DNA from: a virus
Length of the DNA stretch: 36,885 bases
Virus record (IMG/VR): IMGVR_UViG_3300031951_000564
Location: 1-36,885 of that record
Reading direction: 5' to 3' (one strand)
The notes beneath the pieces were generated by a model. It did no database searches. It was not told the origin of the DNA and saw only the letters and a list, made by a program, of their open reading frames with translations. Shown here one piece after another: positions 5,630 through 36,351 of the stretch. Both the position numbers and the translations under genes were made by a program. Within the stretch, counting starts at the first letter, position 1; every line of letters starts with the position of its first letter.

Positions 5630-7042
5630 ATGCTGCTTGATGTACAACAGAGAGGGACGAACCTTACAATTTCATATTACGACAAAGAAGGCAACACTAA
5701 CTACAAACAGTATAAAGTAAGCCAAGTCGCCAACTGGGAAGTCTGTGAAGAAAGAGACAAGAACAAATCAGATAAATTCAGAAACTGGGACGGCCGACCA
5801 GTCAAAAGAACGGCTTCAAAATCACTAGACAAATACTCTCTCATCCAATTCATCGATGAGCTATCCTTTGAGGAAACTGAAGAGATATTTGGTTACAACT
5901 TACCAAAGACCTATTTTGTAGATATCGAGGTTGAAGTCAAGGACGGCTTCCCTGAAGCCGATAGAGCAGATACACCGGTCACTACCATAGCAATAGTTAC
6001 ACCAAACGCACAAGCGATTGTTTTGGCTACTGGAGATCTTCCCCAAGATCAACAACAGAAGATTCAAAATGATGTCGATGACTATTTCAAAGACACAAAT
6101 ACGAGATTTAGTTTTGTCTATAAGAAATTTGATTCAGAATACGATCTTCTCTATACATTCTTCAAATCTTTCGTTTCAAAGTTTCCAATGATCACAGGTT
6201 GGAACTTCATTAACTTTGACTGGAAATATCTTGTCAATCGAGCTTCCAAGCTAGCAATAGATCCAGCAATATCAAGCCCAGTCGGAGAACTCTGGGGAAA
6301 GGAAAATCTCCCTCTTCACGTAGGAATGATGGACTACTTGGAACTCTATCGAAAATGGGATCGTTCAGATTTTATCAAAGAAAACTTTACTCTCGATTCT
6401 ACAGCCGAAGCAGTAGTTGGATTGAAAAAAATCAAGTATAGCGGTACCATCCAAGATTTGTACGAAAAAGAATATACAAAATACGTCTATTACAACGTGG
6501 TAGATACCTGTCTCGTATATCTCATCCATCAGAAATTGAGAACGATGGATATTGCATTGACTATTGCTACTATGTGTAGGATTGGAATTTACAAAGCAGC
6601 TTCACCGGTCGCAATTACTGAATCGATGCTCTGCCGAAAATTCTTAGCTCAGAATAAAGTAATGGCCAGAAACTTCGTTGAAGATTCAAGAAAAGACACA
6701 CAATATACTGGAGCCTATGTAAAAGCTCCTGTCGTAGGAATGCACAGAGCAGTTGCCTGCTTTGACTTTGCTTCTCTATATCCATCGATCATGAGGCAGA
6801 TCAATATCAGCCCTGAATCTTTCATCAAGAAGATCGATCCTGTCGAAGCTCTGAAAGAAAAATCTCCTGATAAGATCGTATCGGTAACAGGTGCCATCTA
6901 TAAGAAGGATGATTCTATTCTCAAGAACATCTTGACAGAGCTCTACACAAATCGAAAGGTCTACAAAGGAGAATCTAAGAAGTATCAAGTCGAAGCTGAA
7001 AAATTAAGAGAAGAAATTAAGAACATAAAAAACGAGCTATGA
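5630..7042 (+). CDS. 43A: family B DNA polymerase, N-terminal half (exonuclease + palm motif A)
   Basis: 470 residues: the first half of a T4 gp43-type replicative polymerase. Visible: exonuclease motif I F-V-D-I-E at 96-100 (Asp98, Glu100), motif II G-W-N-F-I-N-F-D near 190-200, motif III Y-Y-N-V-V-D near 287-292, and polymerase motif A D-F-A-S-L-Y-P-S at 379-386 with catalytic Asp379. The chain stops in a strongly charged helix (E-A-E-K-L-R-E-E-I-K-N-I-K) which corresponds to the outgoing helix of the fingers. Motifs B and C are absent and are found in the gene at 11708. The two halves (470 + 382 residues) add up to roughly the 898 residues of T4 gp43, so they are expected to assemble into one enzyme. 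The stop overlaps the start of a 47-residue ORF (ATGA). Confidence 0.92.
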   Translation: MLLDVQQRGTNLTISYYDKEGNTNYKQYKVSQVANWEVCEERDKNKSDKFRNWDGRPVKRTASKSLDKYSLIQFIDELSFEETEEIFGYNLPKTYFVDIEVEVKDGFPEADRADTPVTTIAIVTPNAQAIVLATGDLPQDQQQKIQNDVDDYFKDTNTRFSFVYKKFDSEYDLLYTFFKSFVSKFPMITGWNFINFDWKYLVNRASKLAIDPAISSPVGELWGKENLPLHVGMMDYLELYRKWDRSDFIKENFTLDSTAEAVVGLKKIKYSGTIQDLYEKEYTKYVYYNVVDTCLVYLIHQKLRTMDIALTIATMCRIGIYKAASPVAITESMLCRKFLAQNKVMARNFVEDSRKDTQYTGAYVKAPVVGMHRAVACFDFASLYPSIMRQINISPESFIKKIDPVEALKEKSPDKIVSVTGAIYKKDDSILKNILTELYTNRKVYKGESKKYQVEAEKLREEIKNIKNEL

Positions 7043-10962: not shown

Positions 10963-11721
10963 ATGGAACTCAAAATCAAAAAAATTAACGGGGTCGAATT
11001 TCAGACCTTTGTGAAGAAGCTTTTATCGATCGATAAATTCATCTTCATGAAATTGGCTGCAGATCAAGTAACCTCTTCCGTCTATCTTCCACAGAAAGAC
11101 GCCGTCAAGTTCACCACAGTAAAGACCGCAGAAATGTTCGAGCTTGAAGAAGCACCAGCAGCTCCTATCAAGATCTCGTTCTTCAACGGCAACAAAGTAA
11201 TTGATGCTCTATCTTTCTTCGGTGAAGAAATTTCAGCAAAAGTATCTTACCAGAAAATCGGAGATGATCTAGTAGCTACAGACTTTACTGTAGAAGATGA
11301 AAATCTGAAGATCAATCTTTACTGTGCAGACCCAAGCTTGAACTTCATGGAAATGACCGATGACGAAATCAAAAGAGCATTCGGAGCAACCGGTAAAGTT
11401 TTCAGCTTTGAACTTCTTACAGTCCATGTGGATAAGATGAAGTCTCTCTTCAAACTCGAAGATGATAGAGAACTCTTCAAATTCAAAGTATCTGAAAAAG
11501 GAGTACATGTATCCGGTGACAGATATGATGCAGTCCTCACTCACCAGGTCGAAATTCACAATGAAGAGATGACAGAAGTCAGCATGTATAAAAAATACAT
11601 TCCGATCTTAGACAAAGAGAACTATAAAGTGGTTGTTTGCGAGAACAAAGCCATTTTTAAATCTCTAGACACTAACACAATTCTTACCGTAGCTCTCGCC
11701 ATCGTAGATGACAATGAGTAA
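10963..11721 (+). CDS. 45: DNA polymerase sliding clamp (gp45-like)
   Basis: 252 residues, against 228 for T4 gp45. Sequence similarity to gp45 is weak but spread over the chain: A-D-P-S-L-N-F in the middle (gp45 has A-A-D-P-S-T), and Y-K-V-V-V-C-E-N-K-A near the end against Y-K-L-L-L-W-A in gp45. The predominantly beta, acidic composition fits a trimeric clamp ring. The position is decisive: its 3' end overlaps the C-terminal half of the polymerase, as clamp and polymerase genes cluster in T4-like phages. In T4, the DNA-loaded clamp also activates late transcription together with gp55 and gp33, and a gp55-like gene is present here. Own promoter at 10910 and A-rich leader. Confidence 0.72.
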   Translation: MELKIKKINGVEFQTFVKKLLSIDKFIFMKLAADQVTSSVYLPQKDAVKFTTVKTAEMFELEEAPAAPIKISFFNGNKVIDALSFFGEEISAKVSYQKIGDDLVATDFTVEDENLKINLYCADPSLNFMEMTDDEIKRAFGATGKVFSFELLTVHVDKMKSLFKLEDDRELFKFKVSEKGVHVSGDRYDAVLTHQVEIHNEEMTEVSMYKKYIPILDKENYKVVVCENKAIFKSLDTNTILTVALAIVDDNE

Positions 11722-12856
11722 AAGAGAAAAGCTAGAAGAATTACAAGAAAGATTGGCTCAGGTAGAGTTCGAAGCTCAGAAATACTATAACTTTGAACAG
11801 GCCGTAAAGCTCATGCTGAACTCTATCTACGGAGCATTCGGTAACGAGTGGTTCTATTTTTTCAATGTTGATATTGCTGAAACCATCACTTTGCAAGGTC
11901 AGGATGCGATCCTCTATACTGAAAAGATGATCAATAAGTACTTTCAGGAGTACTGGACCAAAGACAAAGAGGTGCATGAAAAAATGGGAATTGAAATCAC
12001 GGGTCAGATCAAAAAGCCTATGGTCATTTACATTGATACTGATTCATGTTATTTGAGCTTTCAGGAAGTTTTAGAAAACTGTACGTGGAAAGGAGATGAA
12101 AAAGAATTCGTACTTAAGTTGTACGAATACCGTCTCTCCAGCTTCAATGTTAAAGTTCTTGAAAAATATGCAAAGGATCTCAACGCAGATAATTTTCTTG
12201 ATTTTGAGATGGAATCCATCGCTAAGAATGCCATCTGGTTGGCCAAGAAAAAATACATGCAGAACATCGTTTGGAAAGATCCTAATCTGCATTATGAGCC
12301 TCTTACAAAAATCAGCGCTAAAGGGTTTGAGATCATTCAATCAAGTACTCCTCTCTTTGCTAGAAATAAGCTGAAAGAAGTTCTCAAATTCATATTTTCT
12401 GTGGAAAAAGTCGAGCTCAGTGATCTTGTCAATCTACTTAAGAAATTGAAAAGAGAATTCAAGTTGGCTAATACTGAACATATTACTTTCAACGTTAGGA
12501 TTAACAACTATCGAAAATACGTTCTTTCAGATTATGATCATTTTGAGATTGCTTCAGGGTGTCCCATCCATATCAGAGCTGCAGGTTACTACAACTATCT
12601 CTTGAATAACAGCAAATACAAGAATCGTTATAAGACTTTGACGGACGGTGAAAAGATCAAATACTACATCAGTAAAGACAAGACTTGTAACGTCTTTGCT
12701 TTTCCTCCAGGAGATTTTCCCGTGGAATTTGCTCCTAGCGTAGATCATGATCTGCAATTCGAAAGATGCATTGTCGATCCTATCAATCGAGTCATTGATG
12801 CAATGGGTCTAGGTAAATTAGATCGGAATCTTGTTTATTCTGCTTCTGTTTTTTAG
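11708..12856 (+). CDS. 43B: family B DNA polymerase, C-terminal half (fingers, palm motif C, thumb)
   Basis: 382 residues; ATG 11708 overlaps the clamp gene (alternative ATG at 11714). The chain starts with a charged helix (K-R-E-K-L-E-E-L-Q-E-R-L) that is the returning helix of the fingers, then motif B K-L-M-L-N-S-I-Y-G-A-F-G-N at about 34-46 and motif C Y-I-D-T-D-S at 108-113 with catalytic Asp110 and Asp112. The remainder is palm and thumb, ending F-V-Y-S-A-S-V-F-like, as in clamp-binding tails. It lacks exonuclease motifs and motif A, which are in the gene at 5630. The break is therefore at the tip of the fingers hairpin. It should be active only together with the N-half. Confidence 0.92.
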   Translation: MTMSKREKLEELQERLAQVEFEAQKYYNFEQAVKLMLNSIYGAFGNEWFYFFNVDIAETITLQGQDAILYTEKMINKYFQEYWTKDKEVHEKMGIEITGQIKKPMVIYIDTDSCYLSFQEVLENCTWKGDEKEFVLKLYEYRLSSFNVKVLEKYAKDLNADNFLDFEMESIAKNAIWLAKKKYMQNIVWKDPNLHYEPLTKISAKGFEIIQSSTPLFARNKLKEVLKFIFSVEKVELSDLVNLLKKLKREFKLANTEHITFNVRINNYRKYVLSDYDHFEIASGCPIHIRAAGYYNYLLNNSKYKNRYKTLTDGEKIKYYISKDKTCNVFAFPPGDFPVEFAPSVDHDLQFERCIVDPINRVIDAMGLGKLDRNLVYSASVF

Positions 12857-21705: not shown

Positions 21706-23439
21706 ATGGGATACCCAGTCTATTTAAACGGTCATTTCCCGAATGCAGGTGAAACTGCAGCCGCGAAAGACACTCTAACAATCTTGGTCAACGAGTTCAG
21801 AAAAAGCGGAAAGACCGATGCTCAGATCTACAGCGTGCTTCTCGGTATGGGAATAGATCCTGAAAAGGCCGCTAATGGCATTCAAGGAATTTCTAAAGTT
21901 CCAACCTCTTCTGAGGTAGCAATGCAGAAAGCAGCTCAAACTTTTTTACAAGTTATCAGCGTTGAAGAAAACAATTCACAAACAAAAAATACAAACATGA
22001 AGTTTTCAGTCGAGAATCTCGTCAAGAAGATTCAAGAAACAAAACAATCTGTCGGCGAGCTCGATGCGGCTAATGCCGGTAAGTATGGCTTTTCAGCTAA
22101 AAAGATCAGCGAAGCATTAGATGCTTCTCTCGTAGCTCTAGACATGGAAAAAGCCCAAGGTCTTTTAAAGTCTATCGATAACACTAACAAGTCTTTAGAA
22201 GACGCTAATATGAACAAGAGCAGCGCTCAAGCTGAACTTGAAAAACTTAAGAAACAAGCTTTAAGCGTTACAGAGAAAAGAAATTATCTCGAGACGATCA
22301 GCGTTCTTAGACAAAAGCTTCATGAGCATGCTTGGATCGAATCAGTAAAAGATCTTTGCCTACATATCGACGAGGCTAAGTCTCAAAATCGTCTTTCTCT
22401 TTTCTTAATGGAAGCTCTTTACAATATGAAGAGCGACAGATATGTTGCTTTCAACTCGAAACCAGTTGAAGCTATCGAGAAAATGATCGAAGAAGGTGAA
22501 GATTTCATCAAAGACAATTACTCTTCTTTAAAGGCATTTGCATGGTCAGTACCAGTTAGAACTGCAGCTACCAAAATTGCAAATACTTTGAATGAGATGA
22601 AAGATACTTCTACTGCGGCAATGCAGAAGATCTACAGCCCAGTTCAAGAAAATGAAGACGGAACTTTAACTATTTCTTTGGCTGGTAAATTCTACGCAGT
22701 ATCTGAAAACAGCATCATAGAAGCATCAGAAAATCAAAAGCCTGGCTCTAGATTCTTAAAGACTCTCGATGCTTTATCGATCTTCTCTGCGACTAACGAA
22801 GGCTTCACTTACTATGGTAAGAGAAAGTCTTTGACTATCAACGAGAACGGAGTTACTGTAGAGAACAAAGTTCTTGAGAATACGACTCCAGAAGCTATCA
22901 TGACAGCTTTACAGGAAAGTGCTCTTACTTCTAACGATTCTAAAATTGTTTCAGAAAAAATTGCTTTCTTGATCGAATCTATCGATACAGTTAAAGAGAT
23001 CGATCTCTTCACCTCTGTAGTTTCTACTCAGCGTAGAGGCGTAGCAGTAAACATTGCTAAAATCAACGAAAGCATCTTCATCAACAGAATCAATACTGCG
23101 ATGGGATGTAACGAAATGATCCAAGTTAACAATGCTAAAGTTGCTCAAGAATTGGTCAACGAATTTGTAAACTTTGATATCACTCCTCTAGTTCAAGAAA
23201 TGCTCAGCTCAGAAGAGAAACTTGCTTTTGATCTTCAAGGTAAGAAAAATTCTATCCAAGAAAATCTTCAATCTCTCGAGGAAAAGAAAAAAGAAGTCAT
23301 AGCTACTATGGCTCTTCATCCAAACCACGAGCCGTTGAAAGAAGCTTTTGACATTTTGACTTCTGAGATCGAGGCTAAAGAAAAAGAACTCCAATCAATC
23401 TACCACCGAATTTCTGAAATTTCAGAAAAAAAAAGTTGA
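21706..23439 (+). CDS. large protein of unknown function, probably virion or head assembly
   Basis: 577 residues, no recognised family. Residues 1-85 contain A-A-A-K-D-T-L-T-I-L-V-N-E-F and look like a helical domain; a linker rich in Asn/Thr/Lys follows (91-97). Met98 (ATG 21997, behind the A-rich bases ACAAACAAAAAATACAAAC) starts a second module M-K-F-S-V-E-N-L-V-K-K-I. Coiled coils are likely near 140-185 and 500-577; the middle (about 310-420) is beta-rich. The late promoter box upstream and the position between tail completion and gp55/gp4 genes suggest a structural or assembly protein. The internal ATG may give a second, shorter product. Confidence 0.6.
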   Translation: MGYPVYLNGHFPNAGETAAAKDTLTILVNEFRKSGKTDAQIYSVLLGMGIDPEKAANGIQGISKVPTSSEVAMQKAAQTFLQVISVEENNSQTKNTNMKFSVENLVKKIQETKQSVGELDAANAGKYGFSAKKISEALDASLVALDMEKAQGLLKSIDNTNKSLEDANMNKSSAQAELEKLKKQALSVTEKRNYLETISVLRQKLHEHAWIESVKDLCLHIDEAKSQNRLSLFLMEALYNMKSDRYVAFNSKPVEAIEKMIEEGEDFIKDNYSSLKAFAWSVPVRTAATKIANTLNEMKDTSTAAMQKIYSPVQENEDGTLTISLAGKFYAVSENSIIEASENQKPGSRFLKTLDALSIFSATNEGFTYYGKRKSLTINENGVTVENKVLENTTPEAIMTALQESALTSNDSKIVSEKIAFLIESIDTVKEIDLFTSVVSTQRRGVAVNIAKINESIFINRINTAMGCNEMIQVNNAKVAQELVNEFVNFDITPLVQEMLSSEEKLAFDLQGKKNSIQENLQSLEEKKKEVIATMALHPNHEPLKEAFDILTSEIEAKEKELQSIYHRISEISEKKS

Positions 23440-25235: not shown

Positions 25236-26933
25236 ATGGCCGGATTTTCAGACAGAAAGGGTTCGTTAACGAAAGGCAATCCAGTTTCGGACGCCCTGAA
25301 ACGTCTTAGCCGACTGGGAATGAACTACGACGACATGGTCTTGAGAAACTCAAGAGCAGTCGGTTTCACCGAGAACCAGATAGGCTACGGCATGTTCAAT
25401 CCCATGGGATCGGACTCAGACGACATGTACTATCTTTTCGCTTCTCTTTCAATGACAGACGTGTCAAATAAGAAGAACATTTCTTATTTCGACAAGAGTT
25501 ATATGAAGAAGAGGGACCAGTTGAGAAACTTCGCGGTCCAAGACGAAATTGAAGACATTTTAGATACAGTAACAGACGAAGCTATCGTCTTTGACGAGAC
25601 TAACTATTTTGCATATCCTATCATCAATGCTTCGGTTTCTAAAGAAGTCAAGGATGATCTCATAGACAGCTACAATAAGATCTATGAATACTTTGGATTC
25701 AGCGATGGCCAATCTGCTTGGAACTACTTCCGTAAGTGGTTAGTAGACGGCTATCTTTCTTTTGAAATAATCTATGACGATGAGCAGAGACACATTATCG
25801 GCTTTAAGGAGCTCGATCCAGTTTCTCTAATGCCAGCCGTAGATAAAGAATCAGGCAAGAAGATTTGGATTCAGTACAAGGGTGGAGGACCGAAAGAAAG
25901 AGTTCTTTTCGACACTCAAATCATCTATCTAGCATATTCATCAGTCAACTCTCCTTCTAGAGTTTCTTATGTTGAGAGACTGATTAGATCTTTCAACTTA
26001 TTGAGGATCATGGAACACTCCAGAATTATCTGGGCTGTAACTAATGCGAGCTTCAAGATGAAATTCGTGATTCCAGTAGGTGGTAAATCAAAAACGAGAG
26101 CAAAGCAATCTTTGGCCCAGTTGATGAACAACTATCGTGAACTGGTGAATTTTGATATGCAATCCGGAGAGATACAGACTAATGGAAAGCCGATGATGCA
26201 ATTCCACAAAGAGTATTGGCTTCCTTCTAAAGACGGAGAACAGCCCGAGATTGATACATTAGCAAATGACGGTCCTCAGCTTTCAGACACTGAATCTTTA
26301 CAGTGGTTCTACGACAAATTGAAGCTTGCTTCAAAAATTCCTTTCAGCCGATTTGATAAAGACTCTCCAGCTACTTACGAAATGGCTGCAGAAGGTATGA
26401 ACAGAGAAGAGATCAAATTTGCGAAGTTCATCAACAGATTAAGATCAATTTTTCAGGAGATCTTGGTCAAACCTCTTTACATTCAAATATGTCTCGATTA
26501 TCCAGAATTGGAGGACGACACCAATTTCAAGGGTAACTTGACGATCAAATATAACAAAGACAACGTCTTTGAAGAATTAAAGCAGATGGAACTTGCTTCT
26601 AAGAGAATAGACTTTATCTCTCAGGTTAGAAGCGGCCTTACAGAACAAGACAGCGAGATGAATGAAGTTCCTTTCTTCAGCCTTAACTTCTTGATCAAGA
26701 AGTACGGTGGATTCACTGAAGAAGATTTGAAGAAGAATAAGAAGATGAAAGAAGTCGACGACCTGGTGAAACAAGGGTATGAACCAGGCGACGCGGAAAA
26801 GATAGCAGACGGAGAAGATCCTAAGAAGTTCAAGAAGGTTTCCAAAGACATGGGAGACGAGAACATCGATGCAGGTTCTCTTGGCGGAGATGACGCTGGA
26901 GGCGCAGAGGACATACCAGGCCTCGAGCTCTAA
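25236..26933 (+). CDS. 20: portal vertex protein (gp20)
   Basis: 565 residues, T4 gp20 has 524. The N-terminal third has the portal signature around D-E-I-E-D-I-L-D-T-V-T-D-E-A-I-V and Y-F-R-K-W-L-V-D-G-Y-L-S-F-E; the middle has Y-V-E-R-L-I-R-S-F-N-L-L-R-I-M-E and R-F-D-K-D-S-P-A-T-Y-E, which is typical of gp20. The C-terminal 50 residues are Gly/Asp rich, ending E-D-I-P-G-L-E-L. The dodecameric ring nucleates prohead assembly, forms the DNA channel and docks the terminase. It comes directly before the protease-scaffold gene, in the T4 order 20-21-22-23. Confidence 0.93.
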   Translation: MAGFSDRKGSLTKGNPVSDALKRLSRLGMNYDDMVLRNSRAVGFTENQIGYGMFNPMGSDSDDMYYLFASLSMTDVSNKKNISYFDKSYMKKRDQLRNFAVQDEIEDILDTVTDEAIVFDETNYFAYPIINASVSKEVKDDLIDSYNKIYEYFGFSDGQSAWNYFRKWLVDGYLSFEIIYDDEQRHIIGFKELDPVSLMPAVDKESGKKIWIQYKGGGPKERVLFDTQIIYLAYSSVNSPSRVSYVERLIRSFNLLRIMEHSRIIWAVTNASFKMKFVIPVGGKSKTRAKQSLAQLMNNYRELVNFDMQSGEIQTNGKPMMQFHKEYWLPSKDGEQPEIDTLANDGPQLSDTESLQWFYDKLKLASKIPFSRFDKDSPATYEMAAEGMNREEIKFAKFINRLRSIFQEILVKPLYIQICLDYPELEDDTNFKGNLTIKYNKDNVFEELKQMELASKRIDFISQVRSGLTEQDSEMNEVPFFSLNFLIKKYGGFTEEDLKKNKKMKEVDDLVKQGYEPGDAEKIADGEDPKKFKKVSKDMGDENIDAGSLGGDDAGGAEDIPGLEL

Positions 26934-26983: not shown

Positions 26984-28810
26984 ATGTCCAAGAAATTACT
27001 AATTTTGGAACGTTCGGGCGAGACCCTCGTTCACAAAGGGGATGACGACAGCATCACCTTAGAAGGAACTTTCACCCAGTTCGACATTAAAAATAAAAAC
27101 GGCAGGATCTACGAGGAGAAAGAGTTTCTTCCTCACCTCAAAGAACTGCAAGAGAAAGTAAAGAAAGGGAAGCTTCTAGGCGAACTAGATCACCCTACTA
27201 AATTTGACATCTCTTTGCAGAACGTCTCTCACGTCATTGAAGACTTAGAGTACGATCCAGCTAAGAAGCAAGTGGTCGGTAAGATCAAACTTCTCAACAC
27301 AGATAAAGGAAAGCAAGCTAAAGCTTTAGTAGAGGCTGGAGTTCCACTTCACATTTCTTCCAGAGCTGCAGGCAATGTTGGTAACGACGGCAAAGTAAAA
27401 ATCCAAAAACTTTTTACTTATGACCTAGTAGCTGATCCAGGTTTTGCGGCAGCTGAGCTTAGAAGAGTCAATGAGTCTTTCGGTTTCGGCGAAGACGACG
27501 AACTTTTCATCTATGAAATGTCTGAAGACACTAATACGGTACAAGAGAACCCCAATAATAAATATAAAAATACAGAAGAAACGATGAGCAATCCAAATTT
27601 TGTCTCAACTGAGGACTTCAACAGGTACTCCGAGTATGTGAAACAGCAGTTCGAGTCTTTGAAGAATGGCCAAGAATCATCTGAGAAGCTTGAAAAGGTT
27701 GTAGAATATACTAACCACTTGGCTGAGAACATGAACAAGCTTTTCGGTTACACCAACTACTTGGCTGAGAACCTCGATAAGAACATCTCCCACGGAGACT
27801 ATGTAGTTGAAAGCCTCAACAAGCTAAAAGAGTACTCTAACTACCTCGCAGAGAGCGTTAGCAAAGGAATCTCTTATTCTGAGTACGTTGCAGAGCAGAC
27901 TAACTCTCTCGTAGAATACACTAAATATGTAGCAGAGAAAGTAGATCAAGGTATTTCTTATTCTGAATACCTCGCAGAGAACCAAGACAAAATGATCCAG
28001 TTTTCTAACTATCTCGCAGAGAACCAGAACAACACAATTTCTTACTCTAAATATCTTGCAGAAAGACTTGATCAAGGCCTTAGTTACAGCGAATACCTCG
28101 CTGAGAACCAGAACAACATGATTAAGTATTCTGAGTACATCAAAGAAAACGTAGAGAATCTCGGTAAATATGCAAATTATCTTGCAGAGAACCTCAACAC
28201 TTTGAATGAAAAGACTGACGATACAGCTGCTCCTGCTGAGCAAAAGCCAACTGTACACGCAGTTGCAGAAAAAATCGAAGAATCAGTAACTGCAAAAGTA
28301 GATGCTATCCTCGAATCAGTAAAGAACAAGACTGTGGAAAAAGAAGAGAATCATTTCATGAGATTCCTCGATTCTGCAAAGAGAAATGAATTTGAAGCTC
28401 TTAACGAGAGCATGCAAACTAAGGTGACAGAAGCCTTTGCTAGCAACAGATACATGTCAGTACAAGATGCTAACAGAATCTGGAACTCTGTATTCATTCC
28501 TCAAGGACCTGCTAAAATAGACTATGTGGCTAACATGCCTGAAAGATACAAAGAGATCTACGAGTCTCTCAATCCTTCTCAGAAAGACACCATTCACAAG
28601 CAGTCTAAAATGTATCCTCTAGAGACTCAATATCAGATCGATAATTTCTGGCAGACCAGAGATCTTAGACCTAAGAAAGTTGAGATTCAGAAGATCAATG
28701 AAAGTGAAACACCTGCAGCGACTGTAGAAATTACTCCAGCTGGAGTTCCTGCTCAGAGAGTCAACGATATCAAAGAAGCTCTTACTTCAAGATTCAAAAA
28801 CATTCGCTAA
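26984..28810 (+). CDS. 21/22: prohead protease + scaffold fusion (gp21-gp22)
   Basis: 608 residues. Residues 1-175 are a T4 gp21-type serine protease: L-L-G-E-L-D-H70-P (T4 L-G-E-L-N-H-P, catalytic His) and I-S125-S126-R-A-A-G (T4 V-S-S-R-G-L-G, catalytic Ser). Residues 176-200 are an acidic, Asn/Thr-rich linker with I-Y-E as a possible self-cleavage point. Met201 (ATG 27584) opens a scaffold-like part with twelve 14-residue repeats (242-409), a charged linker, and a helical C-terminal domain (about 430-608). In T4 these are separate genes 21 and 22. Here one frame covers both, with an A-rich stretch and a late-box-like AATAAATA just before Met201, so the scaffold may also be made alone. Protease degrades scaffold during maturation. 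Confidence 0.88.
   Translation: MSKKLLILERSGETLVHKGDDDSITLEGTFTQFDIKNKNGRIYEEKEFLPHLKELQEKVKKGKLLGELDHPTKFDISLQNVSHVIEDLEYDPAKKQVVGKIKLLNTDKGKQAKALVEAGVPLHISSRAAGNVGNDGKVKIQKLFTYDLVADPGFAAAELRRVNESFGFGEDDELFIYEMSEDTNTVQENPNNKYKNTEETMSNPNFVSTEDFNRYSEYVKQQFESLKNGQESSEKLEKVVEYTNHLAENMNKLFGYTNYLAENLDKNISHGDYVVESLNKLKEYSNYLAESVSKGISYSEYVAEQTNSLVEYTKYVAEKVDQGISYSEYLAENQDKMIQFSNYLAENQNNTISYSKYLAERLDQGLSYSEYLAENQNNMIKYSEYIKENVENLGKYANYLAENLNTLNEKTDDTAAPAEQKPTVHAVAEKIEESVTAKVDAILESVKNKTVEKEENHFMRFLDSAKRNEFEALNESMQTKVTEAFASNRYMSVQDANRIWNSVFIPQGPAKIDYVANMPERYKEIYESLNPSQKDTIHKQSKMYPLETQYQIDNFWQTRDLRPKKVEIQKINESETPAATVEITPAGVPAQRVNDIKEALTSRFKNIR
27557..27564 (+). promoter_or_regulatory. internal late-box-like AATAAATA with A-rich leader before internal ATG 27584
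   Basis: Inside the protease-scaffold frame, the linker codons contain AATAAATATAAAAATAC (27557-27573) followed by ATG at 27584, the first codon of the scaffold part. The layout copies a late promoter plus an A-rich start region. Confidence 0.35.
27707..28210 (+). repeat. twelve 42-base / 14-residue repeats in scaffold
   Basis: Residues 242-409 of the fusion protein divide exactly into twelve units of 14 residues, with the pattern Y-[ST]-x-Y-[LV]-A-E-x-x-x-x-x-[IL]-x. Examples are Y-S-N-Y-L-A-E-S-V-S-K-G-I-S and Y-S-E-Y-L-A-E-N-Q-N-N-M-I-K. Fourteen residues is two heptads, which fits a coiled-coil rod. The units differ at base level, so this is old, selected repetition and not recent slippage. 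Confidence 0.9.
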
Positions 28811-30643: not shown

Positions 30644-32320
30644 ATGCACAATCAATTAATCAATGAGGCAGAAGTCGTAAAGACTTGGGCTCCTGTGATT
30701 GAAGAGGCGACTGGCATTAACGACAAGAGCAAGCTCTCTTGGATGTCTAAATACTGCCACTTCCACCAATTGAACGAGAACGTGTACAACCAAGTTCACC
30801 TTAACCCTAACATGAACCTTTATGGCATGGGTGCGGTATCTTTCCCTGGCGATCCTGGTTTGAACACTGCGTTCCCAACACAAGCAGCCGGTTCTGGTGA
30901 CAAGCCTTTCAGCTTGCTTCCACTTGCTATGCAAGTTGCAGCTCAAACTGTAGGTTTAGACCTTGTACCAGTTGTTCCAATGAGCGGTCCATTAGGCGTT
31001 CTTACTTATCTTGACTTCATCTACCAAGGTGGTCGTCTTGACAGCTTAGAGACTCCTTTGATGGTTAGAATCGATGGTGGCAACACTACTTACGCTTCTG
31101 GCTATGCTGCTTCTTCTTTCGCTGGTAACACTGTTTACTACTTGAGAGATTCAGGTGGAACTACTCAGTACGCTTTGACTTTCATCGGTCTTTCTCGTAT
31201 CGACGGATGGCCAATCTTCAAAGTGAACGCATGGTCTGGTGGCGCTCAGCAGCCTAACGGTACTGCAGGTGCAGTAACTCTTGCTGCAGCAGTTGACGCT
31301 GGAGACATCTACACAGCAGCTTCTGGTGGAACTAAAATTGCAGATCTTACTGCAGGTGCAGCTCTTCTTGTTAAAGCTCTTGAAGATCACATCACCGGTT
31401 TCTCTGGTAACGGTCTTGCTGGTTACGGCGGTACTGCTAACAACGTAACTTCTGATCAGCCTTACCTCAGACAAAATGGTGAGAACACTCCTGATAACAT
31501 CATGGGTCTTTCTCTCTTCAACAAGTCTGTTGAGGCATTCACTTACCAAGTTGCTGCTGCAGTAACTCGTGAGCAAGTTCAAGACCTTAAGCAGTTCGGT
31601 ATCGATGCAGTTGCTCAAGTAGAAGCTGTACTCGTGAACGAATTGACTCAGTCAATCAACAAGCTCATCCTTGGAAGACTCTTCCAACTTGGTGCAACCA
31701 ACGCTGAAAAAGTATACGGCATCGATGGTACTAACTTGAACCTCTATGTTGCTTCTACTTCAACTTCAGCATCTCTTTCTCTCGGTAACGACTGGGAAGG
31801 AAACGCGGTAAGTATCACTACATCATCTACAGTTCCAACTTCAGGTGACAATGCTGGTACTCTTCAGAGAAGAATTCTCTCTAAGATCCTCGCATCTTCT
31901 AACCTCATCGCTATCCGTGGTCGTAGAGGAGCTGCTAACTTCGCCGTTACTAACGGTCAAGTAGCTTCTGCTCTTCAGGACATCGCAGGATTCATCACCT
32001 ATCCTTTGGCTAACACTGTTAACCAAGCTGGTGGTTCTCTCTACCCTGTAGGTGCTATCGCAGGCGTAACAGTCTACGTAGATCCTAACATGAGCTGGAC
32101 AGATACAAGAATCTGCGTTGGTAGAAAAGGTGACGGAAACTCTCCAGGTTTGGTATTCATGCCTTACTTAATGGCAGAAAGCGTACAAACAATCGCAGAG
32201 CTTACAATGGCTCCTAAGATTGCAGTAAAATCAAGATTCGCTCTTGTAGACGCTGGTTTCTTCCCATTCCTTTACTATTTCACAATGAGAGTAAGATTTG
32301 ATAACTATCAAATCATCTAA
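30644..32320 (+). CDS. 23: major capsid protein (gp23)
   Basis: 558 residues, T4 gp23 has 521. The N-terminus M-H-N-Q-L-I-N-E-A contains I-N-E, and W-A-P-V-I-E-E matches W-K-P-L-L-E of T4 gp23. L43-N-E45 before N46 is a good maturation site, analogous to the L-T-E of T4 gp23. Residues 61-88 carry the G-M-G-A-V-S-F to G-S-G-D motif; then L-P-L-A-M-Q-V-A-A-Q-T-V-G-L-D-L-V-P-V begins the HK97 fold. Codon use is visibly optimised, as expected for the most abundant protein. It has its own late promoter and a strong terminator downstream. No separate gp24 vertex gene follows. Confidence 0.94.
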   Translation: MHNQLINEAEVVKTWAPVIEEATGINDKSKLSWMSKYCHFHQLNENVYNQVHLNPNMNLYGMGAVSFPGDPGLNTAFPTQAAGSGDKPFSLLPLAMQVAAQTVGLDLVPVVPMSGPLGVLTYLDFIYQGGRLDSLETPLMVRIDGGNTTYASGYAASSFAGNTVYYLRDSGGTTQYALTFIGLSRIDGWPIFKVNAWSGGAQQPNGTAGAVTLAAAVDAGDIYTAASGGTKIADLTAGAALLVKALEDHITGFSGNGLAGYGGTANNVTSDQPYLRQNGENTPDNIMGLSLFNKSVEAFTYQVAAAVTREQVQDLKQFGIDAVAQVEAVLVNELTQSINKLILGRLFQLGATNAEKVYGIDGTNLNLYVASTSTSASLSLGNDWEGNAVSITTSSTVPTSGDNAGTLQRRILSKILASSNLIAIRGRRGAANFAVTNGQVASALQDIAGFITYPLANTVNQAGGSLYPVGAIAGVTVYVDPNMSWTDTRICVGRKGDGNSPGLVFMPYLMAESVQTIAELTMAPKIAVKSRFALVDAGFFPFLYYFTMRVRFDNYQII

Positions 32321-32411: not shown

Positions 32412-33941
32412 ATGCCAAAAGTAAAACTATTAGAACAATTCTTGCAAGAAGACTTAAATGAAGGACTCTTTGACGTAGTCACTAAGAGCAAAGCCTTTGT
32501 TAAAAATCCGATCGCAGCGACCAAAATCAGCAATAACGGTAAGAAGCTGGCCCAGGCTCAAGTTGATTCAGCATCTACTGAATTAGACTTTGAGAAGAGA
32601 AAGCTGGCATCCTCTAAAGCTGCTAAGCAGAAGATTGAAGCCCTGAAGAAGAAAGGAGACAATGACGGTGCTCAGAAAGTTAAAGATGAATTTACTGATA
32701 ACAAAGACGCTCTTAAAGCTGCTCACGATCAAAAAAGTGATGCCCTTACAGACAAAGTCGGGAGCATCAAAGACCGAATAGACGATCTCGCCAAGAAGAA
32801 TTCTTCTTTGCAGGACTTGGCTTCTTTAGTTAAGACTGCAGCAAGAGTGAAGAAGAATGAAGTTCTTTTCAAAGGAGCTGATGATGAAGAGAAGAAGCAA
32901 TTGAAGCTACAGATGAAAGATGACATGGAGAAAATCCAAGGTCTTCAGAAGGGTTTCGGAGATTACGAAGGCGCTGATGAGCCAGAAGATAAGGGTGAAA
33001 AAACCAAAGATAAGAAGGATAGCGATGTGACAGTAGATACTGGAGACGATAAGACTTCAAGCTCGACAAGCACAACACCGCCACCACCTCCTCCGGCGGC
33101 TCCTAAGTCTGATAAGCCAACTGATAAGCCTCTTACTACATCACAAGCTCCTAAAGATGAAACCCCTGATGAAGCCGTAGCTAGAACGAGACAAGATGTT
33201 CGGGATCAGCAGAGAATCATTGCAGATCATAAAGGTAGAATAAAAGATGCTGAGGATAAAATAGCTGATCTTAAAGCCGGTAAATATGACAAAAAGAAGG
33301 TAGCAGACCCGCAAGCTGAAATAACTAAATTGCAAAATTCCATACAGGCTGAAAAGGACGCCATGACTATAGCACAATCAGAATTAGAAGATTTAGTAAA
33401 AGCTTCACAAGAAGCTGAAGCTAAAGTACCTAAGGATGAGCCTACAGCAGAACCAAAAGCAGCTGAGCCAAAAGCTGAGCCAAAAGCAGCTGAGCCAAAA
33501 GCTGAACCAAAGGCAGCTGAACCAAAAGCTGAACCAAAAGCGGAACCAAAAGCAGCTGAACCAAAAGCTGAACCAAAAGCAGCTGAGCCAAAAGCAGCTG
33601 AGCCAAAAGCGGAACCAAAAGCAGCTGAACCAAAAGCGGAAGATCCTATGGTCGCCCTTGACGCAGAAATTGAAAAGAATATAGAGGACAGAGGTAAAAT
33701 AACCAGACAGATAAAGGATTTAGAAAAAGAACTTGAGTGGAAGTCTGGTGATGAAGAGAAAGCGGTGAAAGACAAAATTGAGAGTCTTAAAGCAGAACGC
33801 CAGAAGATAGATGATGAAGGAGAAAATCTTTCTAAAAGAAAGAGAGAATTAGAAGGCGACCCTTGGAAGGGAAGCGCGAAAGAATCATTCACCACTCTTA
33901 AAAGCTTCAAAGATTTTGTCAACGAAAAGAAATTCTCGTAA
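32412..33941 (+). CDS. long coiled-coil / EPKA-repeat protein with targeting-like peptides at both ends
   Basis: 509 residues, no recognised family. Leader M-P-K-V-K-L-L-E-Q-F-L-Q-E with L-N-E-G at 15-18; Lys/Glu/Ala-rich helices (about 45-195); Ser/Thr/Pro segment with P-P-P-P-P-P near 226-231; a second helical region (255-335); tandem E-P-K-A / A-E-P-K-A repeats (about 345-409); a third coiled coil (about 413-480); and the last residues L-K-S-F-K-D-F-V-N-E, which again look like the targeting peptide. Very charged and probably extended. Follows the capsid gene under its own late promoter. Inferred role: head-internal or capsid-associated structural protein that binds DNA or acts as a spacer. 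Confidence 0.6.
   Translation: MPKVKLLEQFLQEDLNEGLFDVVTKSKAFVKNPIAATKISNNGKKLAQAQVDSASTELDFEKRKLASSKAAKQKIEALKKKGDNDGAQKVKDEFTDNKDALKAAHDQKSDALTDKVGSIKDRIDDLAKKNSSLQDLASLVKTAARVKKNEVLFKGADDEEKKQLKLQMKDDMEKIQGLQKGFGDYEGADEPEDKGEKTKDKKDSDVTVDTGDDKTSSSTSTTPPPPPPAAPKSDKPTDKPLTTSQAPKDETPDEAVARTRQDVRDQQRIIADHKGRIKDAEDKIADLKAGKYDKKKVADPQAEITKLQNSIQAEKDAMTIAQSELEDLVKASQEAEAKVPKDEPTAEPKAAEPKAEPKAAEPKAEPKAAEPKAEPKAEPKAAEPKAEPKAAEPKAAEPKAEPKAAEPKAEDPMVALDAEIEKNIEDRGKITRQIKDLEKELEWKSGDEEKAVKDKIESLKAERQKIDDEGENLSKRKRELEGDPWKGSAKESFTTLKSFKDFVNEKKFS
33447..33638 (+). repeat. tandem EPKA/AEPKA coding repeats
   Basis: Alternating 12-base and 15-base units (core GAACCAAAAGCAGCT and variants) encode about fourteen E-P-K-A or A-E-P-K-A units. 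The high base-level identity suggests recent expansion by slippage or recombination. The array may vary in length between isolates. Confidence 0.9.
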
Positions 33942-34443
33942 GAGCCCCAAGATCAGCATTAGAGACTGGGGTAAAGCTCCTAGAAAGCATGGAATCATGC
34001 TCAAATTTCTGACGGAAGATCAAAGGAGATTTCTCTTCGATAACGATCATCTTAAGTTTATTTCTCGAAAAAAGGACTCTATCTCTGCCGTGTTCTACGT
34101 CTTCTACCAAGAACAATTGCGTAAGATTGATAGAGCAGCTTTGCACAATCCTTTCGCTGGAACCTTTACCAACCGCATTCAGTTATACAAAGATGCTCAG
34201 TTAGTAGATTGGAAGTGTGCCGTTTGCGTTGATGAGATTAAATCTAGCATGACAGATTTCTCACCTGAAAACTTTCTCTGTTCTACGTGTCAAGAAGCTC
34301 ATTCCGGGTCAAAGAGAATAGATTCTAGAATCAAACAGAGCTCATTAGAATTCACAGAGCACTGCAAATCTCTGTTAAAGATAGAACAGAAAGACTTCTT
34401 AAAGTTTGTGAAAGCTAATCGAAAGCAAGAGCCTCCTCGATAG
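33916..34443 (+). CDS. small zinc-ribbon protein of unknown function
   Basis: 175 residues from a TTG start that overlaps the preceding gene; ATG 33997 (residue 28) is the alternative and would remove a basic N-terminus (K-R-N-S-R-K-S-P-K). Two C-x-x-C pairs (W-K-C-A-V-C and L-C-S-T-C, about 33 residues apart) form a likely zinc site. The rest is helical and basic. Its 3' end overlaps the minus-strand gene by 29 bases, so the two transcripts converge. Role unknown; a DNA/RNA-binding role is plausible. Confidence 0.55.
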   Translation: MSTKRNSRKSPKISIRDWGKAPRKHGIMLKFLTEDQRRFLFDNDHLKFISRKKDSISAVFYVFYQEQLRKIDRAALHNPFAGTFTNRIQLYKDAQLVDWKCAVCVDEIKSSMTDFSPENFLCSTCQEAHSGSKRIDSRIKQSSLEFTEHCKSLLKIEQKDFLKFVKANRKQEPPR

Positions 34444-35281
34444 AGATTTTCTGAAAAGATTCAAGCTTGCTGATTTGAGAAGCGTTATAGACTTTGACTT
34501 TTCTCTTTTCTAATGGATCTATCAGAGTATCAAAGTTAGGTACCATCAATCGAGCCATAGTATCTGTATCAGCAGTTGAAGGGTAACCTTCATGCCAGTG
34601 AGTTTCTTTTCCATTAGTCTGCATATCAAATCCTAGAAGAACAATTCTTTTTGCTCCGAGATGGTATGCTAAATTGATAGCAGCGTAACCAGAATTTCCA
34701 CCGTCTCTCAATCCATAAGACATTGTTTCTAATCCAGTCTTTCCAGTGTTGAGCAGATTAATAATGTCTCCTCTCTTCGGCTGAGCTCTGCAGGTGACTT
34801 TAATTCCTTTGAAATTATCGACTTCTTTCGAGTGCCATTCGTAGAATCTCGTATCGCTCCAATAAAGAACTTGAGCAAATGGTAAATGCATGAACGCCTT
34901 GTTGACTGCGATGACGACCTTGTCTTTGAGCCTATTGAAATCAAATCCTTTCAGAGAAGTTCCACCACCTACAATATAGATAGTGTCTCCGAGAAAAATT
35001 GGATCAATGTAAGTATAGTTGTCGTATTTCCAGACATTGGCTATTCTTCTGTGCTTTTCTTCCGGCGGCGTGGTGGCTCTTATTTCTCTAGCCTCCTCGA
35101 TAGCAGTGATCTTCCCTACTGCTCTATCCACCATTGATTGTCTGGATGATGAGATCTCTAAGACTCTTACCGGTCTAGGATCGTCAAACTTTTTCTTGAT
35201 TTCTTGGGGCTTGACTCGGATGACGTTTGTCCTCCTCCTGATGATATATTCACCGCCACCTTCATTTCTACGTGTTGCCAT
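34415..35281 (-). CDS. DUF115 / 'norphogenetic' family protein
   Basis: 288 residues on the minus strand, the only clear minus-strand gene. The ATG at 35281 is used because the frame upstream would run into the gp44 promoter. After a basic N-terminus (M-A-T-R-R-N-E-G-G-G-E) there is a Rossmann-like core: I-Y-I-V-G-G-G-T-S-L-K-G-F-D, then V-V-I-A-V-N-K-A-F and V-L-Y-W-S-D-T-R-F-Y-E-W-H, then I-V-L-L-G-F-D-M. This pattern is found in phage proteins labelled norphogenetic or DUF115 and resembles MptE-type and sialyltransferase-like folds. The reaction is not known; sugar or nucleotide-sugar handling is the usual guess. TATTTATC at 35287-35294 (GATAAATA on the coding strand) could be its late box. 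Confidence 0.65.
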   Translation of the reverse strand: MATRRNEGGGEYIIRRRTNVIRVKPQEIKKKFDDPRPVRVLEISSSRQSMVDRAVGKITAIEEAREIRATTPPEEKHRRIANVWKYDNYTYIDPIFLGDTIYIVGGGTSLKGFDFNRLKDKVVIAVNKAFMHLPFAQVLYWSDTRFYEWHSKEVDNFKGIKVTCRAQPKRGDIINLLNTGKTGLETMSYGLRDGGNSGYAAINLAYHLGAKRIVLLGFDMQTNGKETHWHEGYPSTADTDTMARLMVPNFDTLIDPLEKRKVKVYNASQISKLESFQKISIEEALAFD

Positions 35282-35334
35282 ATTGATATTTATCCTATGC
35301 GTAGAAGTGACTTCTAGGGGCCTCGAAATGTCTC

Positions 35335-35363
35335 TGAAACTAAAGATCGATTCCACATATAAA
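35335..35363 (+). promoter_or_regulatory. early/middle promoter TGAAAC-N17-TATAAA
   Basis: TGAAAC at 35335-35340 and TATAAA at 35358-35363, spaced 17, in the 110-base divergent gap between the minus-strand DUF115 gene and gp44. Confidence 0.65.
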
Positions 35364-35391
35364 AGATAGCAACAACAAAAAACAGAAAAAC

Positions 35392-36351
35392 GTGAAAATA
35401 GACAATGTCCTCTTTTATGAGAAGTATCGGCCAAAGAATTTGAATGAGCTCATCGTTCCGGCTAGAGTCATGGAGAAGCTCAAGAAAGGAGTTTATCAAC
35501 ATCTATTGCTTTACGGCAGCCCTGGTACAGGAAAGACCAGTAGTGCTAAAGTATTGGTCAAAGAGTTCGGTCTTCCTTATTGCTACATTAACGCTTCGGT
35601 TGATACCAGCGTTGATACCGTCAGAAACAAGATTACCGACTTTTGTGCAAACAGAAGCATCATGGACGAAGCCGGAAAAATGAAAGTAGTAATCCTCGAT
35701 GAGATCGACGGAGTATCTGATCAGTTTTTCAAAGCTCTTAGGGCTACGATGGATCAGTTCAGCGCTAATGCTCGATTCGTAGCCACGTGTAATTACATCA
35801 ACAAGATTCCAGAACCGATTCAATCTCGTTTTGAGATGATCAACTTCGACTTTTCGAAAGAAGAGGAAAATGAATTGATGAAGAGTTACATCCTGAGGAT
35901 CAACCAGATCTGTAAGAACGAAGGAGTTGAGATGGACAAAATGGCTATGCTGGAACTCGTGAAACGTAAGTTTCCTGATCTTCGTAGCATTTTGACTACT
36001 ATCCAAGGGTATTATTCACAAGGCATTACAAAGATCACTGTCGAGGATGTCAAGAAGTTCAACAGCATGTATAAAGATGTTTTTGAACTCGTCTTTAATT
36101 CGATTGATCCAATTAAGAATTATCAGCTCTTGGTTTCTGACTATTCCAATCGGGTGGATGATGTCCTCTCGGCATTAGGATCTGAACTCATCGATTACAT
36201 TAGAACTGAACAGCCGACCTATGACAGAGCAGTACCTCAAATCATAGTCACAGTGGCTAAGTACCAATCAATGAGAACTCAAGTCATCGATCCTGTGATC
36301 ACCATGCTGGCATGTGTTTATGAATTACAAAGCATCATAAAAGAGTCTTAA
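35392..36351 (+). CDS. 44: clamp loader large subunit (gp44, AAA+ ATPase)
   Basis: 319 residues, the same length as T4 gp44. Walker A G-S-P-G-T-G-K-T at 42-49, Walker B V-V-I-L-D-E-I-D at 99-106, sensor 1 A-T-C-N at 131-134, and the arginine-finger motif S-R-F at 145-147. It opens the sliding clamp (gene at 10963) and loads it onto primer ends. The start is GTG 35392, as no ATG is near. The partner subunit gp62 was not found in the window, unlike the T4 order 45-44-62, so the clamp and loader genes are separated here by more than 23 kb. Confidence 0.94.
   Translation: MKIDNVLFYEKYRPKNLNELIVPARVMEKLKKGVYQHLLLYGSPGTGKTSSAKVLVKEFGLPYCYINASVDTSVDTVRNKITDFCANRSIMDEAGKMKVVILDEIDGVSDQFFKALRATMDQFSANARFVATCNYINKIPEPIQSRFEMINFDFSKEEENELMKSYILRINQICKNEGVEMDKMAMLELVKRKFPDLRSILTTIQGYYSQGITKITVEDVKKFNSMYKDVFELVFNSIDPIKNYQLLVSDYSNRVDDVLSALGSELIDYIRTEQPTYDRAVPQIIVTVAKYQSMRTQVIDPVITMLACVYELQSIIKES

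Follow-up and report, generated by a model that had tools for sequence, protein, structure and literature searches.

A putative self-dismantling head scaffold, with a protease-type site in each repeat of its coiled-coil rod, in a large T4-like phage

In phage T4 the core and its scaffold protein gp22 are degraded by the protease gp21 to small peptides, which exit the head (PMC9026906, PMC9958956). Scaffold outnumbers protease about ten to one, and the structure of the core is still unresolved (PMC9958956). The T4 enzyme recognizes L/I-x-E and that of phiKZ S/A-x-E, and redundant sites are described in the substrates of phiKZ gp175 (PMC9026906). By our counts T4 gp22 carries 16 [LI]-x-E motifs in 269 residues (5.7 expected), with enrichment only at the +2 spacing; several other T4-type scaffolds are site-rich like gp22. 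Protease and scaffold are annotated as a single fused polypeptide, 'prohead core scaffolding protein and protease', in Tenacibaculum phage PTm1. Little is known about core removal in very large phage heads.

We analyzed a 36,885-nucleotide stretch of viral DNA (the window; IMG/VR record IMGVR_UViG_3300031951_000564), which is part of a large T4-like phage. It includes a run of genes for a late sigma factor, homologues of the head closure and DNA end protector proteins, a portal protein, a protease-scaffold fusion and a gp23-type capsid protein, the last three being:

25236..26933, plus strand: portal protein, gp20 type (PF07230, E 1e-74)
26984..28810, plus strand: protease-scaffold fusion gene, 608 aa (open reading frame; phrog_207 head maturation protease, E 1e-38; PF03420 Peptidase_S77, E 2e-14)
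30644..32320, plus strand: major capsid protein, gp23 type (PF07068, E 7e-34)

Other genes of the window were noted in passing. A protein with a long AEPKAEPKA-type repeat is encoded 3' of the capsid gene (32412-33941), a family B DNA polymerase is split into two open reading frames (5630-7042 and 11708-12856) with ribonucleotide reductase genes between them, and a minus-strand frame (34415-35434) matches the phage alpha-2,3-sialyltransferase family (E 3e-41). A 577-residue protein whose family was not recognized (21706-23439) contains 28 [LIV]-x-E motifs versus 13 expected (z 5.1), which makes it a candidate additional core protein and protease substrate.

The fusion protein comprises, in order, a T4-type prohead protease (the first 165 residues), a linker, a rod of 14-residue repeats, a second linker, a helical domain and a short tail. 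Its features, all on the plus strand, are as follows:

27032..27478, plus strand: protease domain, residues 17-165 (Foldseek to T4 gp21 5jbl, E 2.8e-8; invariant columns; pLDDT about 80)
27467..27478, plus strand: putative protease-release site V-N-E164|S165 (E164 in 23/23 and N163 in 22/23 representatives <70% identity)
27584..27586, plus strand: Met201, a putative internal start codon that would give a 408-residue free scaffold (Met in 23/23 representatives; A-rich context)
27713..28216, plus strand: rod built from twelve heptad coiled-coil units of 14 residues, each with [LIV]-x-E at unit positions 3-5 (lag-14 identity; 3.5-residue periodicity; relatives)
28346..28678, plus strand: C-terminal scaffold domain, helical and conserved, about residues 455-565 (pLDDT near 80 for most of its length; profile matches)
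28694..28705, plus strand: putative C-terminal release site I-N-E573|S574, 35 residues before the end (N572 and E573 fully or almost fully conserved)

A first-pass annotation of this DNA had proposed a scaffold fused to its own protease, an identification confirmed by PF03420 (53.8 bits; cut-off 27 bits), phrog_207 and Foldseek. A profile match to 5jbl (E 5e-7) also places the domain in family S77, homologous to T4 gp21 in both sequence and fold. The putative catalytic residues H70 and S125/S126 are invariant in sets of 23 and 35 sequences. The likely specificity of the enzyme can be read from its other predicted substrate, the capsid protein:

30770..30781, plus strand: putative capsid propeptide site L-N-E45|N46 ([LIM]-x-E in 27/27 capsid proteins, P2 variable)

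All 27 capsid proteins, including those of a divergent group of relatives (clade G), have [LIM]-x-E|[NSAD] where the T4 propeptide would end, with P2 free. Given this invariance, the fusion protease has very probably retained a T4-like specificity, as the first-pass annotation had supposed.

The rod is strongly periodic. Identity is 63/154 (0.41) at lag 14 and 66/140 (0.47) at lag 28, whereas the best identity at any lag in 2,000 shuffles was 0.19. The twelve 14-residue units had been placed at 27707-28210, in frame residues 242-409; they are real, with their cleanest phase at residues 244-411 (27713-28216). Nine units had been credited with L-A-E or V-A-E, a pattern that holds with a count that was too low: 10 of the 12 have [LV]-A-E, and the other two (VVE and IKE) bring [LIV]-x-E to 12/12 in register. 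The rod contains 15 such motifs against 3.9 expected, a number reached in 0 of 5,000 shuffles. This enrichment alone does not prove function because the units share ancestry, and a plain composition p-value was for that reason set aside as functional proof; the comparison with relatives carries the weight. An SbcC-like coiled-coil protein of the window, used for comparison, has no excess of this motif type. A forward-versus-reverse test (LxE versus ExL) is clear for T4 gp22 and not for the window rod, because the repeat itself generates ExL. A minus-strand open reading frame overlying the rod (27824-28258) was read as a mirror of the repeat.

Hydrophobicity along the rod has a sharp 3.5-residue period, the signature of a heptad coiled coil, and AlphaFold2 predicts long helices for the rod, at low confidence. 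Low confidence is common when one chain of a coiled coil is modelled alone. In the heptad register, unit positions 3, 4, 7, 11 and 14 lie around the core, and the site Glu lies opposite it, facing outward from the coil.

This geometry raises the possibility that L-A-E is structural, with Leu, Ala and Glu serving core packing, helix propensity and surface charge and any cleavage being incidental. The strong heptad periodicity is what such an explanation predicts, whereas the position of the Glu, away from the core, is not. Relatives were collected by a scaffold-based scan (39 loci), from annotated phage records (five huge-phage relatives, 462-735 kb) and by a capsid-protein scan independent of the scaffold (45 loci, with additional scaffolds upstream). 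Nearly all have the 14-residue rod. The main and huge-phage groups supply 209 distinct units, of which 206 have L/I/V at P3, 187 have Glu at P1 and only 140 have Ala at P2; where the P2 Ala is missing, the full motif is nonetheless retained in 62 of 69. Within the tripeptide, P3 and P1 are conserved above P2. The site is roughly matched in conservation by the aromatic positions 2 and 13, as a structural role for the repeat would have it. Against such a role, P2, the core Ala, is more variable than P1 and P3.

These counts also bear on whether one site per unit is a mere by-product of recent duplication of a single site-bearing unit. Many units are near-identical in clade H, the huge phages, as duplication would produce. 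Elsewhere, however, diverged units retain P3 and P1 while their other columns drift, and duplication would not predict the relocation described below; we regard this explanation, already disfavoured, as very improbable. Still, part of the site conservation may be structural or may come from shared descent of the units. Overall, the maintenance of site spacing across many related phages suggests a scaffold built for chopping and for clearance before DNA packing.

The site is not kept in place everywhere. In clade F the motif occurs in 6 of 11 units, and in clade G the repeat is retained with the in-register Glu replaced by a conserved Lys at position 5, giving I-A-K in most units. Exact L-A-E is therefore not essential, and free drift of the tripeptide within a persisting repeat, which the first-pass annotation had named as grounds for rejecting its idea, does occur in clade G in the literal sense. 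Yet many clade G units, though only part of them, carry other sites at positions 10-12 or 7-9, and the more general form of the idea, one site per unit, is strengthened by such relocation. A switch of the clade G protease to cutting after Lys was ruled out, the clade G capsid site still being L-N-E; with T4-type specificity very probably kept there, I-A-K is not a site. In the capsid tree, clades G and J and the rest leave an unresolved base on long branches. Because the site is present in the main group, in clades J and H and in PTm1, the distribution favours loss in clade G. In the divergent clade J (loci L091-L098), units that lose the in-register Glu have K-L-N-E-S within the unit.

For a general test of relocation we assigned register with the motif columns ignored, in 59 proteins that together contain 438 distinct units. 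The in-register site is present in 346 of these units. Another [LIVM]-x-E lies within the unit in 56 of the 92 site-less units (61%) versus 33 of the 346 site-bearing ones (9.5%), mostly at positions 10-12 or 7-9. Within-protein permutation gives p <= 0.0008 even for 15 representatives <55% identity, and p 0.0002 with clade G left out. The excess of backup sites is specific to Glu (hydrophobic-x-D, 0.10 vs 0.08) and occurs only at offset +2 from a hydrophobic residue, other spacings showing none; among units with Glu at position 12, a hydrophobic residue occupies position 10 in 38/38 of those lacking the site versus 22/46 of those bearing it. At the level of events there are about ten recent independent losses, six of them with a backup, compared with 16/64 (25%) families of site-bearing units. 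Event-level support for relocation is therefore modest, since unit counts are not independent events.

Relocation also returns to the structural explanation, with which clade G agrees in keeping the repeat with its conserved Lys, as do the backup sites at 10-12, which occupy equivalent heptad positions one heptad later. Surface charge alone would be served by Asp, however, and the excess is confined to Glu two residues beyond a hydrophobic residue. We therefore consider a purely structural role for the tripeptide quite unlikely.

Alternatively, few sites may actually be cut, the others providing redundancy as in phiKZ-type propeptides, in which case the rod would break into a small number of large pieces instead of 14-mers. 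There are precedents in the redundant sites of phiKZ gp175 substrates, in those reportedly suggested for SPN3US, and in the 16 possible sites of T4 gp22. That divergent clades keep roughly one site per unit suggests instead that most sites matter, but cannot show that each is cut. On balance we think extensive redundancy rather unlikely.

Outside the rod, the two putative release sites share the form [LIV]-N-E|S. In the structure model, V-N-E164|S165 stands where a low-confidence linker begins, and I-N-E573|S574 falls within the low-confidence stretch 567-580. Between the release site and the rod, Met201 is invariant in the 23 representatives although the linker is variable and gapped. The sequence upstream of it is A-rich, resembles the gene starts of these phages and ranks at a median 97th percentile of in-frame ATGs; the invariance is the stronger point, because the Asn/Lys-rich linker inflates the context score. 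Met201 is thus likely an in-frame start for a free scaffold, and an internal start would make possible an excess of scaffold over protease, as in T4. The A-rich context would fit initiation without Shine-Dalgarno sequences of the kind described for Bacteroidota (PMC6847099), a Bacteroidota host being a guess from the A-rich start context and PTm1. The C-terminal domain has profile matches to the fusion proteins of PTm1 (E 1e-8) and Lak phages (E 4e-7).

Taken together, the sequence comparisons indicate that this gene probably encodes a self-dismantling head scaffold. We infer the following order of events. A single chain would join the N-terminal T4-type protease, a flexible linker, the long heptad coiled-coil rod and the helical C-terminal domain, and the rods would form the core during assembly. 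The active protease would release itself at VNE164|S, make a second cut at INE573|S close to the C-terminus, and cleave the rod at many of its per-unit [LIV]-x-E sites; the resulting short peptides would then exit before DNA is packed. Translation from Met201 would likely add free scaffold in excess over protease. The I-A-K units of clade G, the modest event-level support and the low-confidence rod model count against this reading. A fuller version, in which one gene supplies both the protease-scaffold and a Met201 free scaffold, with release sites at both ends and one cut per repeat producing near-uniform short peptides, is tentative, and we judge it somewhat more doubtful than not. A regular rod with one predictable cut per repeat makes a clear prediction of peptide length, unit numbers (ranging from about 8 to 15) form a natural series to compare with head size, and clade G offers a natural variant without the usual Glu.

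Compared with T4, the window phage shares the protease fold and family, the L/I-x-E type of motif and a site-rich scaffold adjoining the portal and capsid genes, but T4 protease and scaffold are two genes where this phage has one. T4 gp22 lacks the 14-residue repeat (lag-14 identity 0.086), and profile comparisons of the rod and C-terminal domain with gp22 found no homology (probability <=3%). The rod is predicted to be helical and is site-rich, and its degradation is here a prediction.

The fusion belongs to the PTm1 type, being homologous to the PTm1 protein in the protease (E 4e-26) and the C-terminal domain; of the cultured relatives found, PTm1 is the closest. PTm1 repeats are 16 residues long with L-S-E. 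Their alignment to the 14-mer was judged solely by eye, and comparing the two rods by profile gave no significant match; an internal Met matching Met201 was not seen in PTm1. The huge phages (LR7565xx/LR745206; 462-735 kb) have the whole architecture in common, with 9-14 repeat units, and Lak phages have the protease and C-terminal domain in common but no 14-residue units.

Herpesvirus UL26/UL26.5 offers a parallel layout, with a protease-scaffold fusion, a release site after the protease, a second site near the C-terminus and an in-frame shorter scaffold (PMC12474303). The likeness is one of organization only: in the window it is predicted from sequence, the internal start is putative, and the protease has a weak fold match to the herpesvirus protease (E 2e-3 or worse).

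The first-pass annotation had considered a scaffold whose every structural repeat has a cut site to be seemingly non-standard. A cut-rich scaffold is not new, given T4 gp22, which is site-dense and cut up, and protease-scaffold fusion is already annotated in PTm1; scaffolds with one cut site per repeat were not described in the papers reached by a literature search of incomplete coverage. What is new here is the locking of predicted sites to a coiled-coil repeat, together with the invariant Met201 and the flanking putative [LIV]-N-E|S sites.
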